Assembly: GCA_023259175.1 (NCBI GenBank)
Contig: JAHFQV010000029.1
Location: forward strand, 1 to 39,951
Direction of reading: 5' to 3'
From: Oxalobacteraceae bacterium
GTDB taxonomy: Bacteria; Pseudomonadota; Gammaproteobacteria; Burkholderiales; Burkholderiaceae_D
DNA: 39,951 nt
In this document: one piece after another, positions 14,932 through 21,575 of the stretch
Layout of the letters: each line of letters opens with the position of its first letter
Position numbering within the stretch: position 1 is the first letter of the stretch
Made by a program: the position numbers and the translations under genes
Notes under the pieces: generated by a model
Seen by the model: the letters and a program-made list of their open reading frames with translations, nothing else
Told to the model about the DNA's origin: nothing
Databases searched by the model: none

Positions 14932-16626
14932 CTAAGCTATTTGCTCTGTTTTCAATGTCGCTAACAAGGCATCCTCTGCCACTCTGGTAATCACACATTT
15001 TCCTAAAGGTTTGAGCAGAATAAATTTGATTTGCCCGTCTTCATTCTTCTTATCCACCTGCATCAGTTCTAACCACTGAGCTTCGCCCAAATGCGGCGGC
15101 ACAATAGGCAAACCCGCCCGAGCGACTAATTGTCTAAGTCGTGTTTTCGTCACAAAATCGATATACCCGAGGCGATAAGAAAGCTCCGCCGCCATCACCA
15201 TACCACAACCCACCGCTTCGCCATGCAGCCAGTTTCCGTAACCCATGCCAGCTTCGATTGCGTGGCCAAAAGTATGACCGAAATTAAGTGTCGCCCGTAA
15301 TCCTGCTTCGCGCTCGTCTTCTGCCACAACCTTGGCTTTGATCTCACAAGAGCGTAACACAGCGTAAGTCAAGGCTTGTTCATCGCGCGCCCGCAGTGCA
15401 TCCATATTCGCTTCTAACCAGCTAAAAAACGCGGTATCCGCAATCGCGCCATGCTTGATAATTTCCGCCAAACCGGCAGACAATTCACGCTCAGGCAAAG
15501 TATTTAAGGTCGCGGTATCGGCTAACACCGCTTGCGGTTGATAGAACGCGCCTATCATATTCTTGCCTAGCGGATGGTTAATGCCCGTCTTGCCGCCGAC
15601 GGAGGAATCGACTTGCGCTAACAGGGTCGTCGGTATCTGCACAAAAGGGATGCCCCGCATATAGGCAGAAGCAGCAAACCCCGTCATATCACCGATAACA
15701 CCACCGCCCAGTGCAATCAAAGTCGTTTTGCGATCACATTTTTTTTCCAGCAGCGCATCGAAAATCAACATCAAGTTTTCCCATGTTTTTGCCGCTTCGC
15801 CATCGGGCAAAATAACATGATCGATCTGCTTTCCTATCGCATGCAGACTATCGCTCAAAGTTTGTAAATATAGCGGCGCCACCACCGTATTGGTAATGAT
15901 GACGACCCGACTACCGACAATCTGCGAGCGTAAAACCGCGTGGTTTTGTAGCAGTGAGGAAGCGATCAAAATGGGATAGCTGCGCTCCCCCAAATCGACA
16001 TGCAAGGTGCGCACGGCGGGCATCAATTGATCCATACTATTTTTTTCTTGGGGAAGCGTCAGCTGCACGTCGGCACAACTGGCTTTGATTTGAGTATCCT
16101 CACCCGAAGTCTTGAGACTCAAGGGAAGTTTTTCGACAATACTACCCACCAGGGTTTGTAATTGCGGTTGTCCGGTTTCGATGATCATGTGCGCGACCTC
16201 ACGATACAGTGGGTCACGCTGCGCTTCGAGTTCTTCTAGCTTTTTTTTGGGATCGGCAGTTCGGAGCAAAGGCCGCTTTTTATCGTGACGGGTGCGATGC
16301 AAGATACTATGGATACCCGCTTTGAGATACACCACCGTACCACTTTCTTGGAGTAGGCGACGACTTTCGGCATTCAGTATTGCACCACCACCCGTTGCCA
16401 GAACGATGTCTTGCTGCTGACAAAGTTCACGTATGACATCGGCCTCGCGCTGGCGAAAGCTGGCCTCACCTTCGATATCAAAAATCACCGAGATCGCCAC
16501 ACCAGTACGCGCTTCGATCTCATGATCCGAATCAATAAATCGCTTATTGAGTTTCTTCGCCAGGGCTCTGCCAACCGTAGTCTTGCCAGAGCCCATCAGG
16601 CCAACCAAAAAAATATTACTTGTCAC
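14932..16626 (-). CDS. aroKB: Bifunctional shikimate kinase/3-dehydroquinate synthase (in-frame fusion)
   Basis: The 564-residue reading frame joins two normally separate shikimate-pathway enzymes. Residues 1 to about 175 are shikimate kinase (Walker [18 protein letters not shown], the GEASFRQRE segment and ATGGGAI). Residues 198-564 are a complete 367-residue dehydroquinate synthase ([59 protein letters not shown]). The linker of about 20 residues has no domain. The frames join through seven A at 16040-16046, directly before an ATG that would be a normal aroB start. In most Betaproteobacteria aroK and aroB are adjacent but separate, so the fusion is either real, conditional (slippage) or a one-base sequence error. 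A natural AroKB fusion is known in Thermotoga. Confidence 0.9.
16033..16046 (-). other. A7 slippery junction with hidden UAG and aroB AUG
   Basis: On the minus strand the codons are GAA AAA AAT AGT ATG. The overlapping heptamer A AAA AAT fits the X XXY YYZ pattern for -1 slippage. A -1 slip, or one extra A in the transcript, reads AAA AAA TAG and stops (stop at 16037-16039). The aroB-like ATG (16033-16035) begins one base after that stop. Confidence 0.7.
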
Positions 16627-16659: not shown

Positions 16660-18786
16660 TTAACTACAATTTGCTCCGCCTTTGAAGTTATCTTTGATGT
16701 TGAATGTTGCGGTTGCAGAAGCACCTAAGCTGTCAATAACCGTAAGCGTAATCACATAGGAGCCACCCAATATTGTCGTACCGGACGAGTCTTTCACAAC
16801 GACACAGCGATCACCTTTAGAGCCTAATCCAACCGTTAATGTCGATCCGGTTACCGTCACCGACGATAAGACGAGATCGCTAGTAAAGGCACGATAAGGT
16901 GCTGTGCCACCATAAATTGCAAGGTCTATGGACGCGTTACTATCTTCACCTATCGTCATAACTGCTGGAGAAATACGCAGTGTTGAGTTAGCGGCTGTTG
17001 CGGTCACGTTAATAGTCTTAATTTGGCCTTGCGCATCTTGCACACTGACCGGCGTGACACCGACATTTAGGAGTTTGGCGGTAAATGTTGCTCCCGATTG
17101 TGTGACTGTCGTAATACTTGGGTTATTGTTATTGATCGTAAAGGGCGCGGTTCCACCAGTTATTTTGAAGCTCAGGGTATCGCCCACTGCACCTGTCGAA
17201 TCCCCTGGAAGCACATCTACCGGTGTTTGCGCTACAGCTGTAATCGTCACGGCAACAGTCACACTCGTACCAAGCACATCACGGATCACGACTTGCGCAT
17301 TACCCGCATTTCCGCCAGTAATGGCGTAGGACGAACCGGCCGCTGATACGGTCACGATGGAAGTATTGCTGCTTGTGACCGTGTAAGGTGAAGTACCACC
17401 GCCTATTGTGTAAGCGGCAGTGGTGCCTGTAATCAAGGTCACAGCGGCAGGTGAAGTTGTGAAGAGAGGTATTACCGCACCAGCACTGACCGTTACGTTG
17501 ATCGTTATGCTTGCTCCAGCCGCATCTTTCACGGTGATCTTTGCACTACCTAACTTGAGCCCGTTGATGGTTAAACTCGCTGCGCTAATACTTGCAGTGC
17601 TCACACTCGCATCACTGGTGGAAACCGTATAAGGTGCCAAACCACCGCCCACAGTAAAACTCGGACTCGTGCTTGGAGCGACGATTATGTCACTGGCTGC
17701 AGTTGTAAATAGAGCGACCGGGACAGTACCGCTCACAGTCACAGTAATGGTCAAGCTGCCATTCGTAGCGTCATGGACGACCACACTCGATGTGCCGCTG
17801 CCTACGCCGACGATGGTCAGATCGTTACCTACGATCGTTGCTGTCGCAACAGAATTATTACTACTCCCGACACTGTAGACCGGAATTCCACCGCCGACTT
17901 TATAGGTATTGCTGCCACCTGGGGTGAGATTGACGGCGGCAGCTGCAGTGGAAAATAGTGCGTCATTGGTTCCGACGACAACATTTACATTAACCAGCGC
18001 ACCGGAATTATCCTTTACTGTGACTATCGCATTTCCACCCGCCCGACCTGTAATCACGAAGTCTTTATTGCTAGACTGTCCTACGCTGGCTACGGCATTA
18101 TTACTGCTGGAGACAGTATAGATTTGACTCCCGCCCCCTATCGAATAAACAGCCGAACTTGTACCAATAGAAATGGTGACTGAACTTGGCGCGGTACTAA
18201 ACAGTGCGATGCCAGAACCAATGGTCAAGTCTGATTTCTTACTTGCGCCTAAAGAGTCTGTCATGACTATCGTTGTCACACCCGCGGACAAACCAGTGAT
18301 ATAAAAATCGGAGCCGTTTTGGGTGACTCTCGCCACTTGTTGATTTCCGCTGACGACGCTGTACACCGTACTACCGCCCCCCATTTTGTAGGTTGACGAT
18401 ACCGCACCGATATCCATAGTAATTTTATCTGGCGCATTTGTGTAAAAATCGACACCAGTTCCGACGGTGACTGCAATTTTGACCTTGCTGCCAGCTGCGT
18501 CAAGAACCACCACCTCGCTTTTCCCACCCGCATTTCCACTAATGGTGAGTGTCTTCCCGCTCACACTCGCGCTCGCCGCACCGTTGCTGGACGTAGCGGA
18601 ATATCCTGGCACTCCGCCACCTACGTTAAAGGTGAGCGAAGAACCTGGAGCCACAGTAACAGCATCGGATGCCGAGGTAAATAAGGCAACGCCATTGGTA
18701 TTTCCCGCTGAGCCACCACCTCCACCGCAAGCCGACATTAAAGCGAGCACCGTCAAAGCGGTTAAAGCACGGATAAACTTCGTCAT
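16660..18786 (-). CDS. Tandem-repeat (Ig-like) surface or periplasmic lipoprotein, unknown function
   Basis: The 708-residue protein starts with a lipoprotein signal (MTKFIRALTALTVLALMSAC, lipidated Cys 20) and a Gly-rich tether. The rest is about eight repeats of roughly 80 residues. Each has the pattern LF(T/S)TA...V..G.S..Y.(I/V)GGG...Y.V.SSN, then I.G..(A/S)G...V.V.D..G....I.VTV, consistent with beta-sandwich Ig-like domains. The last repeat is divergent and holds the only other two Cys, one at the very C-terminus, so a disulfide is possible. The ATG at 18786 has AGGTG upstream. It lies between pilQ and aroKB, an unusual insertion, on the same strand with gaps of 90 and 33 bp. A role in adhesion or pilus function is only a guess. 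Confidence 0.85.
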   Translation of the reverse strand: MTKFIRALTALTVLALMSACGGGGGSAGNTNGVALFTSASDAVTVAPGSSLTFNVGGGVPGYSATSSNGAASASVSGKTLTISGNAGGKSEVVVLDAAGSKVKIAVTVGTGVDFYTNAPDKITMDIGAVSSTYKMGGGSTVYSVVSGNQQVARVTQNGSDFYITGLSAGVTTIVMTDSLGASKKSDLTIGSGIALFSTAPSSVTISIGTSSAVYSIGGGSQIYTVSSSNNAVASVGQSSNKDFVITGRAGGNAIVTVKDNSGALVNVNVVVGTNDALFSTAAAAVNLTPGGSNTYKVGGGIPVYSVGSSNNSVATATIVGNDLTIVGVGSGTSSVVVHDATNGSLTITVTVSGTVPVALFTTAASDIIVAPSTSPSFTVGGGLAPYTVSTSDASVSTASISAASLTINGLKLGSAKITVKDAAGASITINVTVSAGAVIPLFTTSPAAVTLITGTTAAYTIGGGTSPYTVTSSNTSIVTVSAAGSSYAITGGNAGNAQVVIRDVLGTSVTVAVTITAVAQTPVDVLPGDSTGAVGDTLSFKITGGTAPFTINNNNPSITTVTQSGATFTAKLLNVGVTPVSVQDAQGQIKTINVTATAANSTLRISPAVMTIGEDSNASIDLAIYGGTAPYRAFTSDLVLSSVTVTGSTLTVGLGSKGDRCVVVKDSSGTTILGGSYVITLTVIDSLGASATATFNIKDNFKGGANCS

Positions 18787-18861
18787 GTAACACCTATTCA
18801 AATAAAAAAACATGTAGATCCCGACCAATAAAAATCGAGCAACAAATCATTCCTAACGCTT

Positions 18862-18881
18862 AATGAGGACTCGACCTCATT
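18862..18881 (-). promoter_or_regulatory. Hairpin spanning the pilQ stop codon
   Basis: AATGAGG (18862-18868) pairs perfectly with CCTCATT (18875-18881) across a 6-nt loop, with the pilQ TGA inside the stem. No T-tract follows on the minus strand, so it is not a classical terminator; it could protect the mRNA end or attenuate readthrough. Confidence 0.45.
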
Positions 18882-21045
18882 GATTCGCAAAACTTCCCGT
18901 CAATTGTACTTTAGGTGTAATGAAAATCAACAATTCAGTCTTGTTATTTGTTTTCCCAGTAGTCTTAAACAAATTTCCAAATAAAGGCAAATCCCCTAAG
19001 AACGGCACCTTGGTCACATCATTACGCTCCTCTTGGGTGTAGATACCGCCTAGAACAACGGTACCTCCGTTTTCGACCAGCACATTGGTTTTAACTTGTT
19101 TCGTATTAATAACTGGACCACCGCGAGTCTCTTCGCCCTTACTGTCTTTATGTACATCCACATTGAGAATAACGGTACCGTCGGGCGTGATCTGTGGAGT
19201 GACGTCAAGACTGAGTACCGCGTGCTTAAACATGATTGAAGTTGATCCATTAAGAGTTGCCACCTGGTAGGGGATTTCCTGACCTTGCTCAATATGCGCG
19301 GGCATTTGGTCAGCAGTGACCACTCGTGGGCTAGAAATTATTTTCCCTTCACCATCCGCTTCCAACGCTGAAATCTCTAAGTTCAACATCCGGTTTGCGG
19401 CGGCAGAAAATAAGCTAATCGCCATGCTTCCCGCATCCAAACCACCAATACCCGCTGCAGGCAAGTTCACAAATTGGGTATTAGGGATAAAGCTTTTTTC
19501 GGTAATCTTTGCTTGCCCAGTCTGTTCGCCCAGTCCCAAATAATTTCCAGTCACTGCCACACGTTGATTTCCAGAAACTTGATAACCGACATCACCGCCA
19601 CGCAAACCCCTAAAGTCAGCAAAACCCAACTTCGCGCCAAGATTTTTACTAAATTTATTATCAGCTTCAACAATCCTAGCTTCAATAACAACCTGCTTGG
19701 TGGCAATATCCGTGTTCTGTATCATGCGTCTCACTTCATCCACTCTAGATGCGATGTCGGTCACGATTAATTGATTGGTACGGGGCTCGACCAGAATACT
19801 GCCACGTTTGGTCAATAGGCGACTTTGCGAGTCCCCTTCGGTTACAAAAAGTTTTTGAAATACTTCGGCTTTTTGATACTTCAACTGAAAATATTCCGTG
19901 CGTAAAGGTTCAAGCTCGGCAATCGCGGCTCGCTGTTCTAACTCGGCACGCTCTTTTCCCAATAACTCATCTTTCGGCCCTATCATAATGACACTGCCAT
20001 TCTTACGCATATCCAAATTTCGCATTTGCATCACAATCTCGAGCGCCTGATCCCAAGGTGTCTCGACCAAGCGTAAAGTCACATTGCCTACCACTGTGTC
20101 GCTCACGATGATATTGACACTACCTTGTTCCGCGATCAACTGCAGTACAGACCGCACATCAATATTTTGAAAATCCATTGAGAAGCGCTCCCCTTTATAC
20201 CCTTGTGTGCCTTGGGTTAATTTATTCGGGTCTTCTTTGATTGGTTTTACTTCAACTACGATTTGGCTATCACTTTGGTAAATGCTGTGCTCCCAAATCC
20301 CTTTCGATTCGATCACCATTCTCACGTTATCGCCACGACGCTCAGTACTCACCTTTTGGATCGGCGAGCCAAAATCGGAGACATCTTGATTGCGTCGTAA
20401 AATCTCCGGTAGTCCAACATGGGAAAATTCAATGACGATGTTTTGGCCTTGCAAGGTCGGATTAAATGCGACTTGATTGTTTGGCAGGTCGATGACGACC
20501 TTGCCCTCACCGGCAGTACCGCGCCTAAAATCGATATCCTTTAAATTCTGGCGCGGTAAGGAACTTGCAACTGGCTTAATTGAAGCTGGCACCCCAACAG
20601 AATTGACTGCAGTCGCAATACCACCCGACCCATCTATCGTCACTATCAGCAAATTTCCTTCGATAAAACTCGCATAATTAAGTGTGCGGTTTAAGTTAAA
20701 AACCAAGCGCGAACGCCCAGGCACCTCGACCACATTTAAACTACGCAATTCGCCTAAGCCAATATCAAGCGAATTTTTTCCAATTGAATTATTGGTGTTT
20801 GCGAAATCCATAGAAATTCGCGCTGGACTCGCAATCGAAAACGAAGGGGGGATTTTTTCCAAGGCTTCTTTAAATGCAATCTTGACGACGACGTTTGCGC
20901 CTTGCTGATTCGCCGTAATGCTTTCTATCGTATTAGGGCTTTGCGCAAATACCTGTTGACTCAGTTGACTCAAAAAGAGCAAACCCAAAAGAAGATACTT
21001 CATGCGCGTGGCGCTCCTTAAACTTTTTAAAATTGATGCTCTCAT
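18877..21045 (-). CDS. pilQ: Type IV pilus secretin PilQ
   Basis: The 722-residue outer-membrane secretin forms the gated channel for the type IV pilus. The signal peptide ends near residue 34 (QQVFAQ). Two AMIN-type domains follow (about residues 40-130 and 165-250), which bind peptidoglycan in homologues. Next come an STN/N0 domain (FSMDFQNIDVRSVLQLIAEQGSVNIIVSD), an N1 domain, and the C-terminal secretin domain (VVIEARIVEADNKFSKNLGAKLGF to PFLGDLPLFGNLFKTTGK and ELLIFITPK). I chose the ATG at 21045 because it overlaps the pilP stop (ATGA) and has a GAGG upstream. Confidence 0.97.
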   Translation of the reverse strand: MRASILKSLRSATRMKYLLLGLLFLSQLSQQVFAQSPNTIESITANQQGANVVVKIAFKEALEKIPPSFSIASPARISMDFANTNNSIGKNSLDIGLGELRSLNVVEVPGRSRLVFNLNRTLNYASFIEGNLLIVTIDGSGGIATAVNSVGVPASIKPVASSLPRQNLKDIDFRRGTAGEGKVVIDLPNNQVAFNPTLQGQNIVIEFSHVGLPEILRRNQDVSDFGSPIQKVSTERRGDNVRMVIESKGIWEHSIYQSDSQIVVEVKPIKEDPNKLTQGTQGYKGERFSMDFQNIDVRSVLQLIAEQGSVNIIVSDTVVGNVTLRLVETPWDQALEIVMQMRNLDMRKNGSVIMIGPKDELLGKERAELEQRAAIAELEPLRTEYFQLKYQKAEVFQKLFVTEGDSQSRLLTKRGSILVEPRTNQLIVTDIASRVDEVRRMIQNTDIATKQVVIEARIVEADNKFSKNLGAKLGFADFRGLRGGDVGYQVSGNQRVAVTGNYLGLGEQTGQAKITEKSFIPNTQFVNLPAAGIGGLDAGSMAISLFSAAANRMLNLEISALEADGEGKIISSPRVVTADQMPAHIEQGQEIPYQVATLNGSTSIMFKHAVLSLDVTPQITPDGTVILNVDVHKDSKGEETRGGPVINTKQVKTNVLVENGGTVVLGGIYTQEERNDVTKVPFLGDLPLFGNLFKTTGKTNNKTELLIFITPKVQLTGSFANQ

Positions 21046-21575
21046 TTTTTCGCCTCTTGCAATTCTAAGCTTGCTTTCCGTTCTGTCCATTCGCCATTAG
21101 TGTCTTGCACGACCTCTACAAAATCCATTCGCTCTTGACTCACGCTAGAAATTTTTCCGTAATTCTGACCAAGGTAATTACCCACCTTCGCCTGATAAAT
21201 CAGCTTTCCAACTTGTACCAATCCAATTAAATTTTTCCGATTATCGAAAGTGCCTACCATCTTCATTTCATCAAGAGGAAATGCTTCCAATACTTCGCGC
21301 GGCCGATCAAAATCGGGCTTTAATCCATTATCGTTTTGCGCCTTCAAACGTGCAAACACCACCGAAAGCTTCATAGGGTCAAAAGGATCGCTCAGGTCAC
21401 CACCTTGAAACGCAACAGGTACAAACACTTTTGGGGCTGCAAGCGCTTGCACCCGCACCGGTGTCTCCTTTTTGACTTGCGCCATCCAAGCGTTAAGCTC
21501 GACCTCTTCATTGTTCGAGCAGGCCATTAAGCTCACTGACGAAACTATCAGCAATAAAAGAGAATGAAGTCTCAT
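21042..21575 (-). CDS. pilP: Type IV pilus assembly lipoprotein PilP
   Basis: The 177-residue lipoprotein has signal LLLIVSSVSLMAC and lipidated Cys 19, followed by a disordered linker. The C-terminal beta-sandwich domain has the family pattern FDRPREVLEAFPLDEMKMVGTF....GLVQVGKLIYQAKVGNYLGQNYGKI. PilP anchors in the inner membrane, joins PilN and PilO, and contacts the secretin PilQ. Start and stop both overlap neighbours by 4 bp within the same sequence, AAAAAATGAGA. Confidence 0.95.
   Translation of the reverse strand: MRLHSLLLLIVSSVSLMACSNNEEVELNAWMAQVKKETPVRVQALAAPKVFVPVAFQGGDLSDPFDPMKLSVVFARLKAQNDNGLKPDFDRPREVLEAFPLDEMKMVGTFDNRKNLIGLVQVGKLIYQAKVGNYLGQNYGKISSVSQERMDFVEVVQDTNGEWTERKASLELQEAKK

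Follow-up and report, generated by a model that had tools for sequence, protein, structure and literature searches.

An in-frame aroK-aroB gene fusion of Oxalobacteraceae keeps an inner ATG in open RNA and may also encode a stand-alone AroB

Introduction

Gene fusions are usually taken to lock two enzymes at a ratio of one to one. The aroKB gene of an Oxalobacteraceae bacterium (GCA_023259175.1; contig JAHFQV010000029.1, whose 39,951 nt are referred to here as the window) raises the question of whether a fused gene can still deliver its second enzyme separately. On the minus strand, positions 16047-16033 read GAAAAAAATAGTATG, so that the junction between the kinase and the synthase has the codons GAA AAA AAT AGT ATG; the junction occurs once in its own assembly and had no match in a plasmid collection. 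A first, sequence-only reading of this DNA proposed that the fusion rests on the run of seven A at the junction (A7), where a slip of the ribosome or a stutter of RNA polymerase would release separate AroK and AroB next to the fused protein, and it named a one-base sequencing error as the plain alternative. Here, we compare the locus with its fused and split relatives, and evaluate which products the gene is likely to make.

Results

The 564-aa open reading frame carries the Pfam domains SKI, DHQ_synthase and DHQS_C, with both enzymes within one unbroken frame, as is expected of a bifunctional AroK-AroB fusion (Table 1). The protein scored 408.3 bits against TIGR01357 (cut-off 305) and 196 bits against NF003456 (cut-off 195). 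Its sole match in its own genome was its own gene (E 0.001), meaning that no second relative of AroK or AroB was found there. As to the surroundings, aroKB is separated from a pilQ-like secretin gene (18877-21090) by a gene for a 722-aa repeat protein with matches to Pfam T2SS-T3SS_pil_N and BiPBP_C (16660-18828, minus strand). The repeat protein has a relative next to aroKB in 40 of 52 Undibacterium loci (repeat copies included, and some flanks being short), and a dgt-like gene follows aroKB in all 52 (repeat copies likewise included).

Table 1. Position of aroKB and of the elements discussed in the text, numbered along the window.
Feature	Coordinates	Strand	Remarks
aroKB	14932..16626	minus	single 564-aa ORF, GTG start; shikimate kinase + 3-dehydroquinate synthase
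Shikimate kinase domain (PF01202)	16126..16596	minus	residues 11-167; coordinates converted from residues
Interdomain linker	16012..16125	minus	residues 168-205; very variable across relatives
A7 run	16040..16046	minus	heptamer A AAA AAT = 16039-16045; not conserved
TAG, -1 frame	16037..16039	minus	reachable only after a slip
Kept in-frame ATG (Met198)	16033..16035	minus	proposed internal start of stand-alone AroB
Second in-frame ATG (Met202), own linker	16021..16023	minus	
Predicted stand-alone AroB, 367 aa	14932..16035	minus	inferred, provided translation begins at Met198
3-dehydroquinate synthase domain (TIGR01357)	14959..15978	minus	residues 217-556; coordinates converted from residues

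The genome is taken to be an Undibacterium, as one contig of its genus carries the junction of U. squillarum (L075) and another locus (L033) the linker of U. fentianense (L073). The in-frame fusion was found in all 40 distinct Undibacterium genes, the present one included, with linkers of differing lengths. Among 35 other genomes of the same genus, 33 had an aroKB match, with no internal stop in any best row, while two genomes (89% and 73% complete) had none; in one of the matching genomes (G028) the match reached residue 522 and the end lay on another piece, and a genome with 9% contamination (G006) held two aroKB copies. To widen the comparison, 264 loci were gathered and reduced, by removal of 21 exact repeats before counting, to 243 distinct gene pairs, 160 fused and 83 split; this ratio is no frequency, as genomes were chosen non-randomly, combining those with one joined match (enriched for fused genes) and those with a two-piece match. 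The first 212 pairs (152 fused, 60 split) are the basis of the results on expected methionines, Shine-Dalgarno pairing, folding profiles, the first synonymous z values and the controls, and all 160 fused genes were used for codon shuffles, -1 frame stops and counts in thinned clusters. The rows are related, and thus for all counts the effective sample is smaller than it looks. In three genomes (G161, G143 and G173), the synthase part was split among two or three pieces that differ in frame, which may reflect assembly errors or decay. On the evidence of these alignments we consider it certain that aroK-aroB is a true in-frame fusion, as the sequence-only reading had recognized. In this respect the gene is not new: AroL/AroK-AroB of Herbaspirillum seropedicae (HSERO_RS20920) is given as an example of a fusion in accessible passages of the GapMind paper (PMC7311316), and the fusion in Oxalobacteraceae is therefore already published. 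For Burkholderia cenocepacia, accessible passages of another paper list two locus numbers, BCAL0279 and BCAL0280 (PMC12013268).

The A7 run, in turn, was present in a single one of the 160 fused betaproteobacterial linkers, that of the gene under study, which is also the only one among the 40 of Undibacterium; a slippery heptamer is not conserved in relatives, and these are fused all the same, which contradicts the notion that the fusion rests on the run. Heptamers of the form X XXY YYZ, of various kinds, stood in frame in 10 of 152 fused linkers. Elsewhere in its own sequence, aroKB holds two A8 runs, one of which gives an in-frame A AAA AAG within the kinase part. Across the window, A/T runs of at least 7 nt number 31, and 18 in-frame A_AAA_AAN heptamers were counted in 29 stop-to-stop ORFs, with both strands scanned and a minimum length of 200 codons. 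Stops in the -1 frame occurred in 92 of the 160 fused linkers, and in 28 of the 160 such a stop preceded a linker ATG by no more than 12 nt. Moreover, no stimulating RNA structure was found 3' of the run, where, with nested stems only and no pseudoknots considered, z against shuffled sequences was 0.19 for 83 nt and 0.17 for 116 nt. Overall, the A-run and its hidden -1 stop are no more than chance would provide, and, judged by these comparisons, the run is a local accident and not the cause of the fusion.

These observations bear on two explanations that start from the run. According to the first of them, a programmed -1 ribosomal slip or an RNA-polymerase stutter at A7 would yield a separate AroK; the modelled slip ends in ...QEKK-stop after 196 aa. 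The sequence-only reading was right that A AAA AAT matches the X XXY YYZ form and that a -1 TAG comes directly after it, one base before the ATG, and low-level slippage at such a run is possible. Nevertheless, a programmed site would hardly be confined to one linker in 160, be followed by RNA that folds no better than shuffled versions, and be outdone by longer A-runs in the same gene, and stops in the -1 frame are common in linkers anyway; we therefore rejected slippage, which appears very improbable as a source of separate products. The other explanation holds that the true run has eight A, that the genes are separate, and that the fusion is an error of sequencing or assembly. Homopolymers are prone to such errors, but the in-frame fusion is present in every one of the 39 other distinct Undibacterium genes, whose linkers differ in length, and an A8 would leave this genome as an exception in its genus, so that this explanation was likewise rejected and is given practically no weight. 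The combination of a rare A7, longer A-runs, structureless RNA and common -1 stops leaves slippage and an eighth A both poorly supported. We also considered TAG-T-ATG as a remnant of the old aroK stop, and dropped the idea because relatives share neither the -1 phase nor the A-run.

The element that relatives do share is the ATG. An in-frame linker ATG was present in 158 of the 160 fused genes, as compared with 60 and 8 of 160 in the other two frames; where a linker had several, the last one was taken, except that for the present gene the first (Met198) was used in the 160-gene counts and in the alignment on the ATG. When linker codons were pooled and shuffled 2000 times, the mean was 110.8 genes with an ATG and the maximum 125 of 160. 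In the first 152 fused genes, 150 had the ATG and 70.5 were expected from the frequency of Met in the gene body, and the next most widespread linker codon, GAA, occurred in 113. The surrounding codons are scrambled: within 8 codons on each side of the ATG, the commonest residue at each codon made up 0.14-0.34 of all fused genes (158) and 0.15-0.41 of Undibacterium genes. As an alignment on the ATG itself favours the ATG, it is the presence count that serves as the test. After identity thinning, with the two genes lacking the ATG scored as not positive, the codon was kept in 108 of 110, 44 of 46 (80% identity) and 24 of 26 (75%) clusters, and it was also kept in 13 of 13 fused Nitrosomonadales, which form a separate group. 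The two fused genes without it come from an Undibacterium genome that is 83% complete and sits on a long branch (L057), and from a metagenome-assembled Burkholderiaceae (L101). In several Herbaspirillum loci (L082, L083, L108 and others), linkers of about 200 nt are far above those of Undibacterium in length, and the ATG still lies near the synthase domain. Altogether, the fused genes have a conserved in-frame internal start codon, retained beyond chance.

The RNA around this codon is weakly folded. In 40-nt windows, the mean folding energy of fused genes was -2.3 kcal/mol just 3' of the ATG and about -8.9 kcal/mol at -42 nt, and split relatives had a similar shape at their true aroB start, with -4.0 kcal/mol. 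To separate this from the demands of the peptide, each 42-nt window was set against 100 synonymous sequences built from the codons that the gene itself uses. Across 150 fused genes, mean z was +1.21 for the window at the ATG, +1.22 at +15 nt, -0.13 at -45 nt and +0.12 at +45 nt. Controls with 60 versions each gave -0.28 at gene-body Met codons (1306 sites, 152 genes) and +0.19 at linker positions at least 39 nt upstream (259 sites, 68 genes). The true aroB starts of split pairs, usable in 57 of 60, had z +1.08 in the first 42 nt, followed by +0.29, +0.10, +0.02 and -0.41. With one gene per cluster, z at the ATG was +1.17 (110 clusters), +1.01 (46) and +0.89 (26); it was +1.03 in Undibacterium alone and +0.71 in the 13 fused Nitrosomonadales. 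The present gene has a modest signal of its own (+0.95 at the ATG, +0.11 at +15 and -0.31 at +30). Thus, as far as predicted folding goes, the calculations show an initiation region that is open beyond what the protein sequence requires, with an openness that is centred on the ATG and that the peptide does not explain.

Shine-Dalgarno pairing, by contrast, was weaker than at control sites. Upstream of the internal ATG of fused genes no such signal was seen on average, mean pairing being -0.87 kcal/mol as against -2.86 at body Met codons and -1.49 at other linker codons, and only 8% reached -5 kcal/mol or lower. Tested as a cue for internal initiation, it was therefore discarded. The fraction of A in the 18 nt before the ATG was 0.32, as compared with 0.20 and 0.25, and in place of a Shine-Dalgarno sequence, openness and A-richness would have to guide initiation. 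Individual genes are exceptions, such as a Gallionellaceae gene (L110) with strong pairing before its inner ATG (-10.3 kcal/mol), which is the clearest individual case of a ready-made inner start.

For the history of the fusion, a tree was built by FastTree from the two domains with the linker left out; such a tree alone cannot tell gain from loss. Fused and split states require at least 8 changes on it, 4 of them forced by well-supported branches. Fused genes fall in two groups, one of Oxalobacteraceae and relatives, and one of Nitrosomonas, Gallionella, Sideroxydans and relatives. Within the first, 20 of 167 rows are split and nested in several places, and in 5 of these 20 (L077, L168, L172, L178 and L191) the frame is unbroken, with a stop followed by an in-frame ATG. 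Given the split outgroups around it, the fewest changes are needed if fusion came first and fission then took place several times. Alternatively, fusion may have recurred, and young, repeated fusions could have kept the ATG simply through recency.

Discussion

Based on these results, the explanation we favour, with a probability of roughly 0.63, is that the gene makes fused AroKB and, by internal initiation at the kept ATG, a stand-alone AroB. Translation from the GTG would give the full-length bifunctional protein, and the old aroB start, within the same message, would also be used by ribosomes, on unfolded RNA and without a Shine-Dalgarno sequence, to produce a complete AroB of about 367 aa. 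From the comparative signals, we infer that ribosomes initiate at this ATG, and also that the shorter AroB builds up and is of consequence; its use may lie in an excess of AroB over AroK, or in a supply of free subunits from which AroB can assemble. The earlier idea that one gene makes fused AroKB plus separate AroK and AroB would then hold in part, since the fusion is real and a separate AroB may be made, while a separate AroK finds no support. For such an AroB, the codon previously described only as an aroB-like ATG is a likelier source than slippage.

The main competitor is a plain fusion that makes full-length AroKB only, in which both the ATG and the openness of the RNA would be left over from the former aroB start or would serve a flexible linker. 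In favour of such a reading, the fusion itself is certain, the ATG has no Shine-Dalgarno signal, and two fused genes do without the ATG. A relic, however, would be expected to decay like the rest of the linker, yet the codon persists nearly throughout amid scrambled neighbours; and the openness exceeds the synonymous expectation around the ATG in particular, and not linker-wide. On balance we consider a plain fusion unlikely, albeit to be taken seriously, and internal initiation the better account of the locus.

More tentatively, a broader picture may be drawn, which we hold to be possible but somewhat short of probable. After at least two betaproteobacterial fusions, selection may have kept the aroB start, so that AroKB and AroB would be made in a set ratio; a stop in the linker would then restore two genes, as may have happened in the nested split lineages, and fused metabolic genes elsewhere may commonly hide working inner starts. 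If the start of the second gene is still used, a fusion can keep independent dosage of the second enzyme, and a single stop codon can undo it. Annotation, which assigns one product to each frame, would miss the inner product. The comparative signal employed here, a kept in-frame start together with openness beyond synonymous expectation, could be applied to other fused genes, and the two genes without the ATG (L057 and L101) are natural tests of whether a stand-alone AroB is dispensable.

With regard to known systems, dnaX is the familiar case of slippage on an A-run, and the run in aroKB resembles it in fitting a -1 heptamer; it differs in that the run is not conserved and a stimulating structure was not found. 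The NCBIfam AroKB models NF010627 (PRK14021) and NF010556 (PRK13951) likewise describe kinase then synthase in one chain, but the present protein scores 325.6 bits against the former (cut-off 565) and 271.6 against the latter (cut-off 560), and is thus not a member of either. The Herbaspirillum seropedicae fusion joins the same two enzymes in the same order and in the same family, and the Herbaspirillum genes compared here are fused on the same plan, whereas the accessible passages of PMC7311316 mention neither an internal start nor a second product. Our search of openly licensed literature on AroKB and its fusion, and on internal starts connected with fusion or fission, brought up no paper describing an internal start within aroKB, and the main text of a survey of frame transitions contains no aroK, shikimate or dehydroquinate (PMC3711429). 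In what is proposed, the closest parallels are Cas11 in CRISPR-Cas operons (PMC11899642) and RpnL/RpnS (PMC10327210), in which, according to the accessible passages of both papers, one frame gives a full-length and a C-terminal product through an internal start. Their internal starts have been tested, whereas the evidence for aroKB is comparative only; and, unlike in those systems, aroKB would have as its inner product a complete central-metabolic enzyme that once had a gene of its own.
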